A DNA stretch of 64,000 nt from contig NZ_CP029488.1 of assembly GCF_003177035.1 (NCBI RefSeq), forward strand, positions 1,674,001 to 1,738,000, read 5' to 3'. The notes under the pieces are model-generated. The model saw only the letters and a program-made list of their open reading frames with translations, was not told the DNA's origin and ran no database searches. This DNA is from Salinisphaera sp. LB1 (GTDB taxonomy: Bacteria > Pseudomonadota > Gammaproteobacteria > Nevskiales > Salinisphaeraceae). Positions 21,577-48,427 of this stretch are shown in pieces. The translations under genes were made by a program, and so were the position numbers. The first letter of the stretch is position 1; every line of letters starts with the position of its first letter.

Positions 21577-21622
21577 AGTCTGCGTTCATCGCATCTGCGT
21601 AGATCTGCGTCCATCTGCGGAG
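21577..21622 (-). repeat. CGCAGAT-type repeat, single-armed copy
   Basis: Four spaced ATCTGCG/GTCTGCG units lie just downstream of the AraC gene stop. They match one arm of the nested inverted repeats at 27.1 and 28.3 kb; no opposite arm is seen here. Confidence 0.6.
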
Positions 21623-25396: not shown

Positions 25397-26284
25397 ATGG
25401 CAGCTAAGGCGCGCCGCGGCGGGCAGGGCTTCGAGCTGGCGATGATGTCGCCAGCTCTGCTCCTGCTCGCGGCGATCTCGTTCATTCCGTTGTTCACCAT
25501 GATCTGGATGAGCCTGAGCAAGGTCGGGCTCATCGGCGGGCTGTCGTTCGACTTCATCGGGCTGGCCAACTGGAAGCATCTGTTCAGCGATCCGGACATC
25601 GGCTCGAGCTGGATCCTGAGCGTGATCTATTTCGCGGCTACGGTGGGCGCGGAGATGATCGTCGGCACGGTGATGGCACTGCTTATCCACAGCCTGATCA
25701 AGGCCCGCAACATCGTGCTGTCGCTGGTGCTGATTCCGATGTTCATCGCGCCGATCATCGTCGGCCTGCTCGGGCGTTTTCTGCTGGATCCGAGCTTCGG
25801 ACTGTACTCGTGGTTTCTGTCCGCCACCGGGCTGTACGACGGCAATATCCTGGGCTCGGTCGGGCCCGCTCTGGCGGCGGTGATTGCGCTGGATATCTGG
25901 GAATGGTCGCCGCTGGTCGCGCTCATCGTGCTGGCCGGGCTCACGGCCGTGCCGACGGATATTATCGAGGCGGCTGAGGTCGATGGCGCCAGTTATCGGC
26001 ACAAGCTGGTGTCGATCATCCTGCCGTCGATCCTGCCGATTCTGCTGGTGGCCCTGCTGATCCGCGCGATGGACGCGATCCGTTTCTTCGCGATCATCTT
26101 CATCACCACCAACGGCGGGCCGGCGGATTCGACCAAGATCATCCCCATCCGGCTGTACGACATCGCCTTTCGTTTCTTCGATCTGGGCTATGCCTCGGCC
26201 GTGGGCCTGACCATGCTCGTGTTCTCGATCGTCATCGCGACCGTGTTCGTGCGCGTGCTCAAACGCAACGAGGCTGTGGCATGA
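25397..26284 (+). CDS. ABC polyol/sugar permease (MalF type)
   Basis: 295 residues with six hydrophobic segments. The cytoplasmic EAA loop, which docks the ATPase, reads IEAAEVDGASYRHKLVSIIL. It begins five bases after the binding-protein stop and overlaps the next permease by four bases (ATGA). A longer open frame runs upstream inside the binding-protein gene in another phase and is not used. Confidence 0.9.
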   Translation: MAAKARRGGQGFELAMMSPALLLLAAISFIPLFTMIWMSLSKVGLIGGLSFDFIGLANWKHLFSDPDIGSSWILSVIYFAATVGAEMIVGTVMALLIHSLIKARNIVLSLVLIPMFIAPIIVGLLGRFLLDPSFGLYSWFLSATGLYDGNILGSVGPALAAVIALDIWEWSPLVALIVLAGLTAVPTDIIEAAEVDGASYRHKLVSIILPSILPILLVALLIRAMDAIRFFAIIFITTNGGPADSTKIIPIRLYDIAFRFFDLGYASAVGLTMLVFSIVIATVFVRVLKRNEAVA

Positions 26285-27111
26285 ATACCCGGGGCCATCC
26301 GCTCAGCACGCTCTTCCGCTGGGTATTGATTGCGCTCATGCTGGTCTGGACGCTGGTGCCCATCGCCTGGATGGTGCTGTCGTCGTTCAAACCCAACAAC
26401 GCGATCACGGCCTATCCGCCGGAGCTGTTCTTTGCGCCCACGCTGGCGCACTACGGGGCGCTGTTCTCGGGCGGCAACAATCTCTGGCACAACGTCGTCA
26501 ACAGCCTGATCGCCACCGGCGTGTCCACGTTCATCGCGGTGGTGCTGGGCGCGACCGCGGGCTATGGCCTGTCGCGCATCCAGATTCGCGGCAAGGATCA
26601 TCTGGCGTTCTGGATCATCAGCACACGCATGGCGCCGATCGCGGCGGTGATCGTGCCGTTGTATCTGATGTTCCGTTATCTGCACATGCTGGATAGCTAC
26701 AGCGGCCTGATCGTGGCGTATCTCAGCTTCAACCTGCCGTTCGCAATCTGGTTGATGACGGCCTTCTTCGACGACCTGCCGCGCGACCTGGAAGAGGCCG
26801 CCCGCATCGACGGCGCCACCAAATGGCAGGTGTTCTGGCACGTCGCCCTGCCGCTGATGAAACCCGGCATCGCCACTACCACCATCCTGTGTTTCATCTT
26901 TGCCTGGAACGATTATGCGTTCGCCGCCACCTTCGCCGGCCCGGGCACGCAGACCATTCCCATCGCCGCCGCCCAGCTGCTCACGCAGACCGGCATCGAC
27001 TGGGGCAAGCTGCTGGCCATCGGCACCGTCGTTGTCTGCCCAATGGCCGTATTCGGCCTGCTGGTCAAACGCTGGCTCGTTACCGGGCTGACGCTCGGCG
27101 CGGTGAAGTAG
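26281..27111 (+). CDS. ABC polyol/sugar permease (MalG type)
   Basis: 276 residues with six membrane helices. The EAA loop is LEEAARIDGATKWQVFWHVALP. The start WVLIALMLVWTLVPIAWMVLSSFKP and the end VKRWLVTGLTLGAVK are standard for MalG-type subunits. It forms the membrane channel with the preceding permease. Confidence 0.92.
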   Translation: MNTRGHPLSTLFRWVLIALMLVWTLVPIAWMVLSSFKPNNAITAYPPELFFAPTLAHYGALFSGGNNLWHNVVNSLIATGVSTFIAVVLGATAGYGLSRIQIRGKDHLAFWIISTRMAPIAAVIVPLYLMFRYLHMLDSYSGLIVAYLSFNLPFAIWLMTAFFDDLPRDLEEAARIDGATKWQVFWHVALPLMKPGIATTTILCFIFAWNDYAFAATFAGPGTQTIPIAAAQLLTQTGIDWGKLLAIGTVVVCPMAVFGLLVKRWLVTGLTLGAVK

Positions 27112-27137: not shown

Positions 27138-27403
27138 TCCGCAAATGAACGCGAATTAACGCAAATGAGGACAGTAAATACAGACAGAAGGCATCTATCC
27201 GCAGATTGCACAGATTTCGCAGATTCAAGACAGATAGTTTTGTTATTTGGATTTCGGATGTGCCATTGAAAACAATCCTGGCCGCGATTGGGGGCAACGA
27301 CTCGCATGCAGCAGTCCTTTCCGCGCCAATCTGCTTGCATCTGCGTCGATCTGCGGACAAGGTCTTCGCTTTAATTTGCGCCCATGCGCGTTTATTTGCG
27401 GAC
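27138..27403. repeat. Nested long inverted repeat, copy A
   Basis: The outer arms, GTCCGCAAATGAACGC... (27138-27167) and ...CGCGTTTATTTGCGGAC (27371-27403), are imperfect inverses. The inner arms, CCGCAGATTGCACAGATTTC (27199-27225 region) and AATCTGC..ATCTGCGG (27328-27356), are also inverses. The 265-base unit should fold into one long hairpin in the transcript between the permease and the SDR gene. Most of this 333-base gap is the repeat; no gene is seen. Confidence 0.75.
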
Positions 27404-27444
27404 TGGAAAAATAGAAGCGGAAAAGCCCGCACGAGGAGCAATTC

Positions 27445-28212
27445 ATGACAGTGATGTCGAAATTCGATCTGACCGGCAAGGTTGCCGTCGTCACCGGCGG
27501 CAACGGCGGGATTGGCGAAGCGCTCGCCCATGCGCTGGCCGAGGCGGGGGCGGCGGTGGCCATCGTCGCCCGGCGGGTGGACAAGGCCGAGAATGTGGCC
27601 GCGGCCATCCGCGAGGCCGGCGGCAAGGCCATGTCCGTGGGCGCCGACGTGACCGACGTGGACGCCATCGAGCCGATGCTCGATTCGATCGAGTCCGCGT
27701 TCGGCCCGATCGATATCTTCGTCAACAACGCGGGCACCTGTGAGCACAAGCCGGCGCTGGAGGTCACGCCCGAAGGCTGGCGCCAGATCTTCGATGTGAA
27801 CGTGCACGGGTTGTGGAACTGTTGCCAGGCGGTGGGCCGGCGCATGGCCGAGCGTGGCTCGGGCAACATCATCAACGTGGGTTCGATCTCGGCCGAGATC
27901 GTCAACCGCCCGCAGATGCAGCCGGCCTACAACGCCTCCAAGGCCGCCGTGCACCAGCTCACCAAGTCTTTGGCGGCCGAATGGGCGCCGAGCGGCATCC
28001 GTGTGAATGCCATCGCGCCGGGTTATGTCCGTACCGAGATGGCCGAGGTCGACAATCCGAAGTTCAAGCCCTACTGGATCGACGATGCGCCCATGCAGCG
28101 CGCCGCCACGCCGGAAGAACTGGGACCATCCATCGTGTATCTCGCCAGCGAGGCCTCCAGCTTCATGACCGGCTCGATCCTCAAGATCGATGGGGGCTAT
28201 ACGCTTTGGTAG
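27445..28212 (+). CDS. SDR-family polyol/sugar oxidoreductase
   Basis: 255 residues. The cofactor motif TGGNGGIGEALAHAL lies at about 18; the Arg after it (VARRVDK) suits NADP or NAD. NNAG, the catalytic Ser of NVGSISAEI, and YNASKAAVHQL (Tyr and Lys) complete the site. PYWIDDAPMQRAATPEEL is the substrate-lid region seen in arabitol/sorbose-type reductases. It sits between permease and ATPase genes of one importer, so it most likely oxidises the same polyol or its ketose. Good GAGGAG ribosome site. Confidence 0.88.
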   Translation: MTVMSKFDLTGKVAVVTGGNGGIGEALAHALAEAGAAVAIVARRVDKAENVAAAIREAGGKAMSVGADVTDVDAIEPMLDSIESAFGPIDIFVNNAGTCEHKPALEVTPEGWRQIFDVNVHGLWNCCQAVGRRMAERGSGNIINVGSISAEIVNRPQMQPAYNASKAAVHQLTKSLAAEWAPSGIRVNAIAPGYVRTEMAEVDNPKFKPYWIDDAPMQRAATPEELGPSIVYLASEASSFMTGSILKIDGGYTLW

Positions 28213-28256
28213 GCCGCCAAACCGAGGACACGGGGCGAGCGAAGAAGAAGGCTTGT

Positions 28257-28510
28257 CCGCAGATCGACGCAGATTCACGCAGATCGAATACAGATAGAAA
28301 GGCATTCATCCGCAGATTACGCAGATGACACAGATTGAAGACAAAAAGATTGGAAGGGTTCGATTTTGGTTTGCGGATAGGGCTTGCGGTGATCGCGACG
28401 GCAGCGATGCCTCTGGTTCTGCAGCGCCTTCCGCGCTTAATCTGCGTATATCTGTGAAATCTGCGGATAAAACGTCTGTATTCATTCGCCGGTCTGTGCT
28501 GATCTGCGGA
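28257..28510. repeat. Nested long inverted repeat, copy B
   Basis: The outer arms are TCCGCAGATCGACGCAGATT (28257 on) and the inverse ending GATCTGCGGA (28510). The inner arms are ATCCGCAGATTACGCAGATG (28308-28340) and its near-inverse TTAATCTGCGTATATCTGTG...GCGGAT (28437-28468). Architecture and core words equal copy A at 27.1 kb. It fills nearly all of the 324-base gap between SDR and ATPase genes. Confidence 0.78.
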
Positions 28511-28536
28511 TAGAAATAGTTTCAGAGGAAAGACCC

Positions 28537-29649
28537 ATGGCAGTCGTAGAACTCAACCAAGTCGGCAAGCGTTACCCGGGCTCGGACGACCTGGCGGTGA
28601 AGGACTTCAACCTCGTCACCGAAGACGGCGAATTCGTCGTCCTTGTGGGCCCGTCGGGCTGTGGCAAGACCACGACCATGCGCATGATCGCCGGGCTGGA
28701 AGAGCACACCGAAGGCGAAATCAAGATCGGCGATCGCGATGTCACCGGCGTGGCGCCCAAGGATCGCGACATCGCCATGGTGTTCCAGAGCTATGCCCTG
28801 TATCCGCACATGACCGTGCGCGACAACATGGCATTCTCCCTCAAGCTCAAGAAATACGACAAGGCCGACATCAAGAAACGCGTCGACGACGCGGCCGAGG
28901 TACTGGGCATCACCAGCCTGCTGGATCGCAAACCTCGGGCCCTGTCCGGCGGCCAGCGCCAGCGTGTCGCCCTCGGCCGGGCCATCGTGCGCCAGCCGCA
29001 GGTGTTCCTGATGGACGAGCCGTTGTCCAATCTCGACGCCAAGCTGCGCGTCGACATGCGCGCCGAGATCGTCAAACTGCACCGCAAGCTCGGCGTGACC
29101 ACCTTCTATGTCACCCACGACCAAACCGAAGCCATGACCATGGGTCAACGGATCGCGGTGATGAAGGACGGCATCGTCCAGCAGATCGATAGCCCCAACA
29201 ATCTCTACCAGCACCCGTCGAACGAGTTCGTGGCCGGCTTCATCGGCACGCCGTCGATGAATTTCCTCGATGCCAACATCAGCGACAACCGCGTCAGCGG
29301 CCAGGATTACGGTCTGGCGCTGGACGAGGAACGCCGCCGGCTCGTGGAAGGGCGGGGCCGCGTCCGCGTCGGCATCCGGCCCGAGCATCTGCATCTGGCG
29401 ACCGGCGACGATCGTGCCTGCCGGCTGTTCGGCGCCGTGGAAGTGGTCGAGCCGCTGGGCTCGCTCACCATGATCCAGGTGAAGGTGGGCGAGAGCACGC
29501 TCACCGCCCAGATCGAACCGCACCAGCAGGTGGCCATGGGCGACGAGGTCACGCTGACCTGCGCGGCCGACAAACTGTACCTGTTCGACCCGGAATCCGG
29601 CACCGCGCTCATCGGCATCGACAACAGCCAGCACGACCGCGCCGCGTAG
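28537..29649 (+). CDS. ABC importer ATPase, UgpC/MalK/MsmK type
   Basis: 370 residues. Walker A GPSGCGKTTTMRMIAGLEE, Q-loop MVFQSYALYPHMTV, signature LSGGQRQRVALGRA, Walker B VFLMDEPLSNLDAKLR and the switch His in YVTHDQTEAMTM are all intact. The C-terminal OB-like regulatory region (about 240-370) contains GIRPEHLHL. It powers the polyol permeases. The arabinoside importer at 58.5 kb lacks an ATPase, and this protein could serve both, as shared ATPases do in other bacteria (inference). Confidence 0.92.
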   Translation: MAVVELNQVGKRYPGSDDLAVKDFNLVTEDGEFVVLVGPSGCGKTTTMRMIAGLEEHTEGEIKIGDRDVTGVAPKDRDIAMVFQSYALYPHMTVRDNMAFSLKLKKYDKADIKKRVDDAAEVLGITSLLDRKPRALSGGQRQRVALGRAIVRQPQVFLMDEPLSNLDAKLRVDMRAEIVKLHRKLGVTTFYVTHDQTEAMTMGQRIAVMKDGIVQQIDSPNNLYQHPSNEFVAGFIGTPSMNFLDANISDNRVSGQDYGLALDEERRRLVEGRGRVRVGIRPEHLHLATGDDRACRLFGAVEVVEPLGSLTMIQVKVGESTLTAQIEPHQQVAMGDEVTLTCAADKLYLFDPESGTALIGIDNSQHDRAA

Positions 29650-31926: not shown

Positions 31927-32423
31927 GGTTTCGCACTGATGTGCGAGTCCCTTCTTTTGCTTGCTCAAAAGAAGGAATCAAGAAAAGAGCATCCGCATCG
32001 GCGCCGGCTGCGCCGGTGCACTCCGATGCTCGCGTCGACGGGATGCGGCAAAAACTTGGGCGGCTTTGGCCGTCCTCAGACAGCTTGCCGCACCGGCGCA
32101 GTGCGCCGGACACCCGTCGCCGCTGCGCGTCTCCGTCGCCTCAGACGGGGCGTAATACAAACACCAACTCCGTTACCTCGCGCGCCGTGTCTGTATTCGG
32201 GGTCCCTTGAGCGCAGCGCCGAGCAGTGGAGGCCGCAAGAGGAAAAAGACAGCCGTGTGTCTGAATGCTGCGTAGCAGCGCGAGTTTCGCGGCTGTCCCT
32301 CTTGCGGGCCGGAGCCGCGCAGGGCACCGATGCGTAGCATCGGCGCAAGGTAGGGTGTCTTTTCCTTTGCTTCCTTTCGTTTGGACAAGCAAACGAAAGG
32401 GAGTCGCACATCAGTGCGAAACC
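31927..32423. repeat. Dispersed repeat, two facing copies (copies 2 and 3)
   Basis: The arm at 31927-31990 (GGTTTCGCACTGATGTGCGA onwards) and the arm at 32359-32423 (ending TCGCACATCAGTGCGAAACC) are imperfect inverses of each other and relatives of 2756-2819. Each contains a small hairpin (CTTTCGTTTG/CAAACGAAAG type). The middle (31990-32360) is GC-rich, with several short hairpins and no credible gene. The whole lies in the 846-bp gap between hslU and the DUF971 gene, which are usually adjacent. Confidence 0.7.
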
Positions 32424-33610: not shown

Positions 33611-34669
33611 ATGGTCCAAGAACAGACAGATATAGATTTCGTCATATTTTATTCGTGGCAAAGTGACTTGCCAGACTCGACAAATCGAAGAGCAATAAGG
33701 TCAGCTATTAGAGCCGCCAGCTCTAAGGCTGAGGAAACATCAGATGTTAGAGTAGTTATGGACGAAGCTACCCGGGATTTAAGCGGTAGCCCTAATATTC
33801 CCGCATCAATAATTGCAAAGATTGAAGCATGTGATTTGTTTATTTGCGATTTGACCACGATTAACTCAGGTGGTGATGAAAGCTTAAGGCGTACACCTAA
33901 CCCTAATGTTCTTTTCGAGCTTGGCTATGCTGTTAGTCAAGTTGGGTGGTCTAGAGTTGTCATGTTGTTTAACCAAGAATTTGGTAAATTTCCAAGCGAC
34001 CTTCCTTTTGATATCGACAGACATAGAGCGTCTCCTTACGAGATAAATTCAGAAAATCCAAAAGATAAGGCCAATATTAAAAAATTGGAAACCCTGATCT
34101 CTGACGCAGTGAGCTCGGTTATTTCTAATAACCCACCAAAACTGTCAGACCTTAAAGCTAAGTCCCCGCAAGAAATCAAGAAAGAGAGGGATGTGAAAAA
34201 TATAAGCTGGGCTATTGCTTCCCTGCATATACCGTCGTTGACTGAATTAATTGAAGGCCTTCCGCGCTATCTGCCTGACAGGATTTTCCACTTCTGGGAA
34301 AGCTTTAAGGGTATTGTAAGAAACCCGCTATTCCATGTTTATGACAAACGAGTCGAAGAATTACTTGTATCGCTCTGTGAAGCATGGGAAACCTGTCTTT
34401 CTTTTCCTGGAAGATATCATTCGGCCCCAGGCGGTAAGGTCCATATTTTTGCTAATCCTGGAGATGCAGCGTTAGACAATGAGCAAGAGCTCGATTGGGA
34501 TGAGATAAACAATGCGAGATCGCTGATGGCAGCCAAATTTTATGAGCTTCTGGATGTGATAAGAGCTGAGTATATTGAAATTGATGTTGATTTATTGAGT
34601 AAGAATGCATGGAAAGAGTATATTGAATTTCAACATGAAATGTTGGATGAACTAGAGAATGATGTTTAA
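33611..34669 (+). CDS. TIR-like nucleotide-binding protein (candidate defence effector), cassette gene
   Basis: 352 residues. The N-terminal 160 residues match the TIR-like family with the FYSWQSDLP start. DEATRDLSGSPNIPASIIAKIEACDLFICDL and PNPNVLFELGYA follow, with the Glu of FELGY as the likely catalytic residue if it is an NADase. The C-terminal half (about 190-352) is helical, with WAIASLHIPSLTELIEG and a closing acidic helix, and is unknown to me. Such N-terminal domains are found in anti-phage systems, often with other effectors. The gene is strongly AT-rich compared with its neighbours, a mark of transfer. Its stop lies within the following attC, as usual for integron cassettes. Confidence 0.7.
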   Translation: MVQEQTDIDFVIFYSWQSDLPDSTNRRAIRSAIRAASSKAEETSDVRVVMDEATRDLSGSPNIPASIIAKIEACDLFICDLTTINSGGDESLRRTPNPNVLFELGYAVSQVGWSRVVMLFNQEFGKFPSDLPFDIDRHRASPYEINSENPKDKANIKKLETLISDAVSSVISNNPPKLSDLKAKSPQEIKKERDVKNISWAIASLHIPSLTELIEGLPRYLPDRIFHFWESFKGIVRNPLFHVYDKRVEELLVSLCEAWETCLSFPGRYHSAPGGKVHIFANPGDAALDNEQELDWDEINNARSLMAAKFYELLDVIRAEYIEIDVDLLSKNAWKEYIEFQHEMLDELENDV

Positions 34670-44673: not shown

Positions 44674-45672
44674 CTATTCTTCAGGCGCCTTCGCCGGCGC
44701 CGGCGCCCGGCTAGTATTGCCTCCACCGCGGCTCGCGCCCGTTTCCGGCCGGGTCGAACCCAGAATGCCCCCGATCCAGCCACGCAACCATTCCGATCCG
44801 GGGTCGTTGTCGGTCTGGGCAGTCCAGACGAGAGAGACGTCGGGCACGTCGAAGGTCATCGGTACCGGCACCACCCGGAGGCCGAAGGCAGAGCCGTAGC
44901 GCATCGCCATCCGCGTGGGCAGTGTGGCGATCAGAGGCGCACAGGCGATCATGCCGAGCACGCCGAGGAACTCGGATGAGGTGGCGGCCACGTTGAGCCG
45001 CCCACCAACGCGATCCAAAGCGGACTCGAGACAGCCGTGCAGGCTGTCACTGAGGCTGACCAACGCGTGTGGATGGGTCAGATAGTCTTGCAGCGAGATG
45101 GCGTCGCCGAGGCCAACCCGATCCGGATGGAATACGCAGCTCAGAGATTGTTCGTAAAGCGGCTGCTGCCGATAGCGCTTCGCCTGGCTGTCGAAACAGC
45201 CGACGGCAACATCCAGCACGCGATCGTCGAGCATCCGGTAGGCTTCGTCCGGCTTCACCGGGCGCCCGTGCAGCCGTACGCCCGGTGCGCGCTCGCGCAA
45301 TACAGTGGCAAGCTCGGGCATGAGCAGCAGTTCGACCTCGCTGGAAAACCCCAGCCGAAACAGGCGTTCATCAGTCGCTGGATCGAAGCTGGCGGTGGTG
45401 TGGATGATGTCCTGCATCATGCGCAGCGTTTGGCCGATCGGCTCCGCCAGCGCCTGTGCCCGAGCCGTTGGCTGCATCTGCGTGCCGACGCGTACGAACA
45501 GCTTGTCGTCCAGCATCGTGCGCAGCACGGACAAACTATGGCTCATGGCCGGCTGGCGGATCTTCAGCCGCTCGGCGGCACGGGTCACGCTGCGCTCATG
45601 CATCATCGCGTCGAATGCGATGAGCAGATTGAGGTCGAAACTCCGCAGATCGAAATGGTCGATGGACTGCAT
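44674..45672 (-). CDS. LysR-family regulator
   Basis: 332 residues. The HTH is FDLNLLIAFDAMMHERSVTRAAERLKIRQPAMSHSLSVLR near residue 12. The effector domain (90-300) is NodD/NahR-like in its start DLRSFDLNLL. A low-complexity Ala/Pro tail (SRAPAPAKAPEE) ends it. It is divergent from the MBL-fold/hydrolase pair and probably activates it. The gap 44489-44673 contains only a REP-like word (TCTGGTCTGTCCCC). Confidence 0.9.
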   Translation of the reverse strand: MQSIDHFDLRSFDLNLLIAFDAMMHERSVTRAAERLKIRQPAMSHSLSVLRTMLDDKLFVRVGTQMQPTARAQALAEPIGQTLRMMQDIIHTTASFDPATDERLFRLGFSSEVELLLMPELATVLRERAPGVRLHGRPVKPDEAYRMLDDRVLDVAVGCFDSQAKRYRQQPLYEQSLSCVFHPDRVGLGDAISLQDYLTHPHALVSLSDSLHGCLESALDRVGGRLNVAATSSEFLGVLGMIACAPLIATLPTRMAMRYGSAFGLRVVPVPMTFDVPDVSLVWTAQTDNDPGSEWLRGWIGGILGSTRPETGASRGGGNTSRAPAPAKAPEE

Positions 45673-47708: not shown

Positions 47709-48427
47709 GTGGCGCGAGCGGCTCGTCGTCCTCAAACAATAGACGTCCGCGCGTCCTGCTTCCCAGCATACCGGTCCACATCATCCAGCGGGGCAACAAC
47801 CGTCAAGCCTGTTTTTTCGCTGACGACGATTACCGCTTCTATCTGGAATGGCTGCAAGACTATGCAGCCATTGAGCGCGTGGCCATACATGCCTACGTGT
47901 TGATGACGAACCACGTGCACCTGCTTTTGAGTGCGCAGACGGCCGCCGGCGCCGGTCGGCTCATGAAACGACTCGGCCAGCGCTATGTTCAATATGTGAA
48001 CCGCACCTATCGACGCAGCGGCACGCTCTGGGAGGGACGGTTCCGCTCTTGCCTGGCACAGGGAGAGCACTACGTGATGGGATGCTACCGCTATATCGAA
48101 CTCAACCCCGTCCGAGCTGAGATGGTCGAGCACCCGGCCGAATACCGGTGGTCCAGTTACCGTGTGAACGGGCAGGGCGAACAAAGCCGCCTGATCACCT
48201 CGCACGCCCTCTATGACGCCTTGGGCGACAGCCCGGGCGCTCGCCAGGCCGCGTATCGCGAACTATTCCGATACAAACTGGACCCCGGTTTAGTGGATGA
48301 AATCCGCAAGGCGACCAACGGCAACTATGTTCTCGGCACCGAGCGATTCGAGCAGCAAGTCGCGGCGATGCTGGGACGACGCGTGAGCCGCGGGGCGCCG
48401 GGTAGGCCGAGGAAAGAAAAGAAGTAG
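47709..48427 (+). pseudogene. REP-associated tyrosine transposase (RAYT), N-terminal frameshift
   Basis: From 47744 one open frame of 228 codons encodes a full Y1/IS200-like RAYT: IPVHIIQRGNNRQACFFADD, HAYVLMTNHVHLLL (HxH metal pair), ARRYRQ-like RYVQYVNRTYRRSGTLWEGRF and CYRYIELNPVRAEMV with the catalytic Tyr. The expected start VARAARR is at GTG 47709 but in another phase, separated by a few extra bases, so no normal start serves the frame. A GTG at 47879 would lose the first third. A REP-like unit follows. Such proteins move and copy REP hairpins. Confidence 0.8.

Follow-up and report, generated by a model that had tools for sequence, protein, structure and literature searches.

The analysed window is a 64,000-nt stretch of the Salinisphaera sp. 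LB1 genome, in which a polyol operon contains three plus-strand genes, identified as ORFs with Pfam matches: an ABC permease gene (26281–27111), an SDR gene (27445–28212, also compared with its relatives) and a MalK-type ABC ATPase gene (28537–29649). The gaps on both sides of the SDR gene are occupied by nested inverted repeats, copy A (27138–27403) and copy B (28257–28510), which the first-pass annotation had placed at these positions together with a one-armed third copy near 21.6 kb, and all of them are recovered here. Rather than being plain inverted repeats, the arms of A and B are short arrays of 7-nt words (CGCAGAT, CACAGAT, CGCAAAT and CGCGAAT) repeated with a pitch of 9–10 nt, three words in most arms and fewer in the decayed ones. 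Both copies have the feature that we use to define this type of repeat, inverted arms of CRCNRAN words at the 9–10 nt pitch, and both are gene-less, that is, have no GxxExxY gene between the arms.

In copy A, the outer left arm (27138–27166, plus strand; inverted repeat I2) is preceded by GTCC and consists of units CGCAAAT/CGCGAAT/CGCAAAT at 27140, 27150 and 27160, with 10-nt spacing, while the inner left arm (27196–27224, plus strand) is formed by CGCAGAT/CACAGAT/CGCAGAT at 27200, 27209 and 27218, with 9-nt spacing. On the minus strand, the inner right arm ATCTGCTTGCATCTGCGTCGATCTGCGG (27329–27361, inverted repeat I1) has units at 27339 and 27349, and is followed by the outer right arm ATTTGCGCCCATGCGCGTTTATTTGCGGAC (27374–27404), the second half of I2 (31 nt, 84% complementary). 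Copy B has an outer left arm of three CGCAGAT units (28252–28284, plus strand; units at 28258, 28268 and 28278, 10-nt spacing), an inner left arm CGCAGAT/CGCAGAT/CACAGAT (28305–28335, plus strand; 28311, 28320 and 28329, 9-nt spacing), an inner right arm ATCTGCGTATATCTGTGAAATCTGCGGAT (28439–28471, minus strand, inverted repeat I4; 28440, 28450 and 28459), and a decayed outer right arm (about 28493–28514, minus strand, inverted repeat I6) with one intact unit. The one-armed copy (21580–21621, minus strand) comprises three right units (21593, 21603 and 21613) and lies in the convergent gap between genes that by Pfam are phage-integrase-family (xerC-like) and AraC-type.

Within the window, 20 units stand in runs, compared to 2 in the reversed sequence; the pattern ATCTGCGGA is matched 8 times with 1.06 matches expected, a count reached by 0 of 100 shuffles, and one of these eight (at 45642) is a lone word with no array. 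A separate 27-nt inverted repeat (31927–31953 and 32397–32423, 96% complementary, 443 nt apart) lies downstream of a gene labeled hslU-like from reading the sequence, and may be another dispersed repeat. The protein encoded at 33611–34669 weakly matches the CAP12/Pycsar TIR effector domain (27.9 bits, cut-off 24.7).

The first-pass annotation had called for a genome-wide search for the repeat unit, with the absence of further copies counting against its reading, and many copies are in fact present. In the genome, searched as one contig of 4,141,708 bases, the pattern ATCTGCGN{0,4}ATCTGCGG has 50 matches and ATTYGCGTNNATTYGCG has 33, the reversed-pattern control yielding 0 in both cases. Fifty-two stretches of the genome (163,578 bases) were parsed into 53 paired elements and 53 unpaired arms, both being working numbers, as some pairs are wide or doubtful. 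The interiors of the elements partly cluster, with 14, 8, 3, 3, 2, and 2 members. The logo of the element ends, selected by the CCGC start, reaches up to 2 bits at unit positions and less at most spacers; beyond the arms, conservation is slight apart from T(A/G)T, with T at –1 in 95 of 97 ends. Arms pair only slightly better within elements than between them (17.1 vs. 15.3), hence it is word identity, not unique pairing, that is kept. Inside or between the arrays of two stretches (L072 and L076, near 2558.5 and 3619.6–3620.2 kb) we observe GTAGGTCGG-type palindromes, and small gene pairs, which on reading resemble toxin-antitoxin modules, are found between or in place of arrays at about 3975.1–3975.8 kb (L079) and in the metH gap of the relative G002 (L147).

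The first-pass annotation had also suggested that the arrays carried the SDR gene into the operon, and comparison with relatives speaks against this. SDR identity to LB1 is 96% in G006, 83% in G001, and 81% in G002, and in LB1 and G006 the polyol operon carries both A and B. The congener G001 has permease, SDR and ATPase in the same order as LB1 with neither A nor B, and G002 has the permease–SDR pair without A, its gap B being diverged. As these genes stand there without the arrays, the SDR gene did not need them to arrive, and carriage of the SDR gene was rejected; the gaps that A and B entered would have belonged to an operon in which it was already present.

Copies A and B are not identical in LB1 and G006. 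The inner right region of A in G006 contains two stacked right arms, and the inner right arm of A in LB1 looks like two layers fused, a further right-arm layer, visible in G006, having apparently been lost in LB1 by deletion between words. The inner left arm of A in G006 has one 9-nt unit fewer than in LB1, and the outer right arm of B is decayed further in G006.

Both PF13366 genes found in the LB1 genome sit between word-array arms. The first (1338263–1338592) lies between CCGCAGATTTCACAGATTGTGCAGAT and ATCTGTGAAATCTGCGCAATCTGCGG, the whole piece parting two halves of metH; the second (3761305–3761643), flanked by CCGCAAATGAACGCGAATAAACGCGAAT and ATTCGCGTTCATTTGCGTTCATTCGCGG, occupies the carAB gap. 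Here metH and carAB are labels given on reading the sequence rather than by a family search. Both proteins belong to TIGR04256, GxxExxY (143.9 and 141.3 bits, cut-off 35). The words of the metH element are those of the inner layer of copy A, and the words of the carAB element, those of its outer layer, so LB1 holds two cognate genes with the words of both layers. In BLAST comparisons, the metH element arm matches the inner left arm of A (genome positions 1701193–1701225) and the carAB element arm, the outer left arm (1701137–1701169), both at 91% and both among many other copies. By this correspondence of words, the outer layer of A would be of the carAB type, and the inner layer, of the metH type.

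The insertion of the element is polymorphic among relatives at metH, at carAB and in the polyol operon. Reading the metH states by eye, we find the gene uninterrupted in G017, G021, and G022, genomes from the same taxonomic order; metH halves with both arms and a GxxExxY gene between them in G009, G006, G018, G010, G020, and G013, and also in G003, where the locus spans a contig break; and a GxxExxY gene with decayed arms in G005 and G007. G001 retains right-arm words with no intact GxxExxY gene, G004 retains a right-arm remnant, the metH gap of G002 holds two other small ORFs instead of GxxExxY, and in G008 and G019 metH is split without the element. The split of metH into two ORFs by a GxxExxY element (L032, 1336763–1340092; also L135–L160 and L364) falls at a point that is presumably the linker between the first two domains. 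The carAB gap contains the element in G000, G003, G006, and G009; a GxxExxY element is absent from the gap in the remaining 13 genomes read, though G018 has a small CACAGAT hairpin in it.

The GxxExxY protein matches PF13366, and its D...ExK residues and predicted fold fit PD-(D/E)XK nucleases, with the D, E, and K of the motif invariant in 19 and in 42 aligned sequences. The structural model of one family member (L195) is confident (pLDDT 93.9), and the fold closest to it is that of the Cas4 protein SSO0001 (entry 4ic1), with a Foldseek E of 5.8e-5 and, by VIA, a Z of 10.1 and an rmsd of 3.6 over 103 residues; the next matches are other nuclease folds of the same superfamily, with Z 8.3 and less. 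No sequence relative with a solved structure is found at E 0.1. GxxExxY is a putative PD-(D/E)XK nuclease with a Cas4-like fold. In excerpts of one paper GxxExxY appears as a gene label (PMC8934634). The literature searched, which covers few subscription journals and preprints, yielded no account of the word arrays or of a GxxExxY role.

Association of the gene with inverted arms extends far beyond Salinisphaera. A search by phylum identifies PF13366 in 57 of 299 genomes, with no match in the E. coli control genome, and the inverted-flank score is at least 15 in 26 of 29 loci (30 were fetched, one with too short a flank). A second, named scan confirmed at least 564 candidates, of which the best 80 were kept; these best 80 include Bacteroidota, Verrucomicrobiota, Planctomycetota, Chloroflexi, and Acidobacteria, as well as several Desulfo-groups, a cyanobacterium, Spirochaetes, and two archaea (ANME-2 and Thermoplasmata). 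Among the 79 of these best 80 with sufficient flanks, 66 score at least 15 (mean 24.3) and 13 score less, compared to 5 of 55 distal windows (mean 11.7) and 11.9% of 1500 flanks paired across loci; a few of the 66 (e.g., L204, L209, L210, and L251) are A+T-rich matches, not clear arrays. The relatives give a score of at least 15 at 28 of 30 loci, the two failures being G005 and G007 at metH, and at 7 of 7 in a further set; of the control SDR loci 2 of 23 do so, including the A/B pair itself in G006. The scored locus sets partly overlap.

The score is also at least 15 without reversing one flank in 40 of the 79 loci (again from the best 80 of at least 564) and in 10 of the 29, which for L133 and some others is explained by a whole hairpin copy on each side. 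As the score alone does not prove inversion, its use as the sole criterion was abandoned and we added an oriented word rule, which demands at least two CRCNRAN units at 8–12 nt on each side in the expected orientation. It was applied to the phylum-search loci, the named loci (the best 80 of at least 564), and the two LB1 genes, 110 loci in total after 2 of 112 were dropped because of short flanks. Oriented arrays flank 80 of these 110 loci, compared to 1 of 83 distal windows and 9 of 110 loci in the reversed orientation; with at least three units per side, the respective numbers are 53 of 110, 0 of 83, and 7 of 110. Two further GxxExxY genes (L326 and L327) have arms that use a different word type (CAGGAT/AGGATT).

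The more alike two proteins are, the more alike are their words. A word consensus is available for 100 of 112 loci (the named ones again being the best 80 of at least 564), and among these the mean difference between words falls as protein identity rises, from 2.5 of 7 letters at 30–40% identity to 1.3 at 60–70% and 0.2 at 90% or more (5 pairs), which is expected if arms and gene travel together, and is not by itself evidence of recognition. In 3 of the 36 listed element-limited pairs homology ends at the outer arm on both ends: L235 (Acidobacteriales) and L268 (Desulfatibacillum), L227 (Enterobacterales) and L228 (Methylobacter), L221 (Chitinispirillaceae) and L228. In the pair L208/L212 homology ends near the outer arm, in a few others this is observed at one end, and the rest stop inside the element or elsewhere. 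Other pairs, mostly from related genomes, align far into the flanks and represent the same site.

Comparison of the flanks at occupied sites only, in 64 GxxExxY loci and with offsets of 0–9 on each side, reveals no target-site duplication; the largest excess, of a 3-mer (5 of 64 loci vs. 0.8 expected), comes from one odd offset pair among 400 tests, and so is no signal. A search for viral carriage gave 65 pattern matches, with 0 relatives in viral contigs; the counts are 0 of 50,697 for phage records and 8 of 72,556 for plasmid records.

We then compared 117 relatives by their PF13366 matches, arm words and counts of ATCTGCGN{0,4}ATCTGCGG. Abundance of CGCAGAT arrays, taken as at least five matches, a threshold chosen after the counts were seen, is observed in 11 of the 13 genomes whose GxxExxY gene has CRCAGAT arms, in 0 of 19 genomes with genes of other words only, and in 1 of 85 genomes without a match to the gene. 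The 13 genomes are G000, G003, G005, G006, G007, G009, G010, G013, G018, G020, G025, G027, and G044, with G005 and G007 assigned to CRCAGAT by place and arm remnants. The 11 abundant ones have 6 to 89 matches, the exceptions being G005 (2) and G018 (0), while the 19 other-word genomes have 0 or 1 match each. The only genome with abundant arrays and no GxxExxY match is G002, with 49 array matches, and it may have lost its gene. By Fisher tests, which ignore shared ancestry, the association has p = 1.1e-12 overall, p = 1.1e-6 outside the genus (4 of 5 vs. 0 of 98), and p = 0.026 within it (7 of 8 vs. 1 of 6).

In our view A and B are likely to be MITE-like copies of the GxxExxY element, gene-less and stacked, that were moved in trans and inserted beside a pre-existing SDR gene. 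The full element would consist of an arm of about three 7-nt words with a 9–10 nt pitch, the gene of the GxxExxY PD-(D/E)XK nuclease, and the inverted arm. The nuclease may read the arm word, as suggested by related proteins sharing a word, and would then cut or nick the arm DNA, after which repair would copy the element to a new place; gene-less copies, probably including A and B, would be moved by the nuclease in trans, the chemistry being inferred. Counting against this reading are the lack of a detected target-site duplication in the 64 loci, the arrays without the gene in G002, and the genes with 0 and 2 array matches in G018 and G005, respectively. It is also conceivable that arms and gene are inherited together while the protein has no action on the arms.

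A second family of genes shows a comparable arrangement. PF05635 (IVP/S23) four-helix proteins are known from the intervening sequences of 23S rRNA. Such genes are present in 61 of 398 genomes of the phylum search, and in 26 of 30 loci (L275–L304) the inverted-flank score is at least 15, compared to 0 of 26 distal controls; L301 scores yet has no clear array. The arm words, as read by eye, mostly repeat at 7 nt (TAGGCAG, AGTGAGT, GTGAGGA), so their grammar differs from that of the GxxExxY arms. Rfam identifies no rRNA in these 30 loci, and its matches in the 40 loci scanned beyond the window are limited to a cobalamin riboswitch and one small SRP RNA. PF05635 has 0 matches in the LB1 genome, and also 0 in the control genomes, so its absence from LB1 is not demonstrated.

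On a broader scale, we tentatively propose, as a possibility we hold with somewhat less than even confidence, that GxxExxY proteins act as the enzymes of mobile elements that form a class of their own, undescribed so far, in Bacteria and Archaea. The Cas4-like nuclease would read the word arrays at the ends of its own element, the word changing with the protein lineage in all six copies together, would move itself and gene-less copies into operon gaps, and could split host genes into parts that persist, as in the case of metH; PF05635 proteins would be encoded by a parallel class of elements, with the 7-nt pitch.

The opposite view, that GxxExxY is a passenger, and arms with their contents are moved or copied otherwise (by host recombination, slippage, template switching in replication, or a transposase acting in trans), seems to us unlikely, though it is the best of the alternatives. 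It agrees with the failure to find a target-site duplication, with the presence of PF05635 genes between inverted arrays as well, which would mean that arms are not tied to one gene, with the two small ORFs that occupy the metH gap of G002, and with the whole-unit change in copy A of G006, where one 9-nt unit is absent, as slippage would give. On the other hand, the two families differ in word grammar, and mere cargo does not predict that the word follows the protein, nor that the number of arrays follows the cognate gene.

The element, as we reconstruct it, resembles several known systems without coinciding with any. Similar to the intervening sequences of 23S rRNA, a small ORF lies between inverted arms and the flanking parts stay usable (cf. 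the split metH), but the protein is another one and GxxExxY elements are located in protein-coding operons, not in rRNA. MITEs of insertion sequences lack a gene, have inverted ends and rely on a full-length relative. Copies A and B, gene-less and with inverted ends, are alike in this respect, whereas the gene that the arms enclose does not encode a known transposase, and the 64 loci have yielded no target-site duplication. In homing endonuclease genes, a small free-standing nuclease gene is itself the selfish unit. The putative nuclease gene GxxExxY is also small and free-standing and could be such a unit, but inverted word arrays flank it at either end, and the genome contains many copies that lack the gene.

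GxxExxY and IVP-type four-helix proteins are widespread, and we have found no role assigned to them in the searches made here. If the genes code for mobile elements with word-array ends, GxxExxY (TIGR04256) obtains a testable function, a class of repeats seen in many genomes is explained, and a PD-(D/E)XK nuclease becomes one of the few enzymes known to drive dispersed repeats; the puzzle would then be the concerted change of the word copies as the protein diverges. Should the nuclease be shown to move the element, this would be a new class.

The suggestion of the first-pass annotation that A and B would form hairpins in the transcript is supported by predicted folding. Predicted folding energies are –105 kcal/mol for A (z = –5.2) and –123 kcal/mol for B (z = –8.5), with 0 of 200 shuffles as stable in either case, and the G006 hairpins are also strong (z = –9.8 and –6.3). 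Rfam 15, run on the whole window at the gathering score, has no match to a structured RNA family. Given such stability in both genomes and the position of both copies in intercistronic gaps, one could assume, following the first-pass annotation, that the hairpins are kept for the operon, separating or protecting parts of the message as REP hairpins do in malE–malF. We regard this as improbable, since arrays like A and B stand at dozens of other genome sites, while the operon exists without both in G001 and without A in G002. Moreover, the gaps are less conserved between LB1 and G006 (82.8% and 76.6% identity) than the SDR gene (90.6%). Changes in paired bases comprise 2 double compensations and 15 broken pairs in A, and 5 compensations and 29 broken pairs in B, and such a ratio is not the picture of a strictly selected hairpin; strict covariation was rejected on this ground. 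A possible effect of the predicted hairpins on the polyol message would, if the copies are mobile as proposed above, be a by-product or a later use.

Finally, REPIN/RAYT (TnpA-REP) systems are described, in excerpts of two papers, as dispersed gene-less inverted hairpin repeats tied to a co-evolving cognate enzyme (PMC3116915, PMC8266576), and the likeness is in the gene-less inverted hairpin repeats linked to a cognate enzyme gene of the same genome, repeat and enzyme changing together. The candidate enzyme here, however, is a Cas4-like PD-(D/E)XK nuclease, not a HUH tyrosine transposase, the arms have about three words at a 9–10 nt pitch and no GTAG/CGTC tag, and in many phyla the GxxExxY gene itself lies between the arms. 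That the arrays are REP/REPIN sequences moved by a RAYT (Y1 HUH transposase) is very hard to maintain: although they are dispersed, inverted and hairpin-forming, and Y1_Tnp genes are present in the genome, with 8 matches spread over 7 sites, one of them in the window, their arms are tandem words and not one palindrome, the tags GTRG and CGTC occur within 10 nt of the outer ends in 2 and 0 of 97 cases, respectively, 6 of the 7 Y1_Tnp sites have an inverted-flank score below 15, and about 1.5 kb on each side of the seven sites contain no arrays except one lone two-unit run, so this identity was rejected both on the tag (GTAG/CGTC) and on the repeat-flanked RAYT gene. The Y1_Tnp (PF01797) match in the window, at 47768–48100, is not flanked by arrays.
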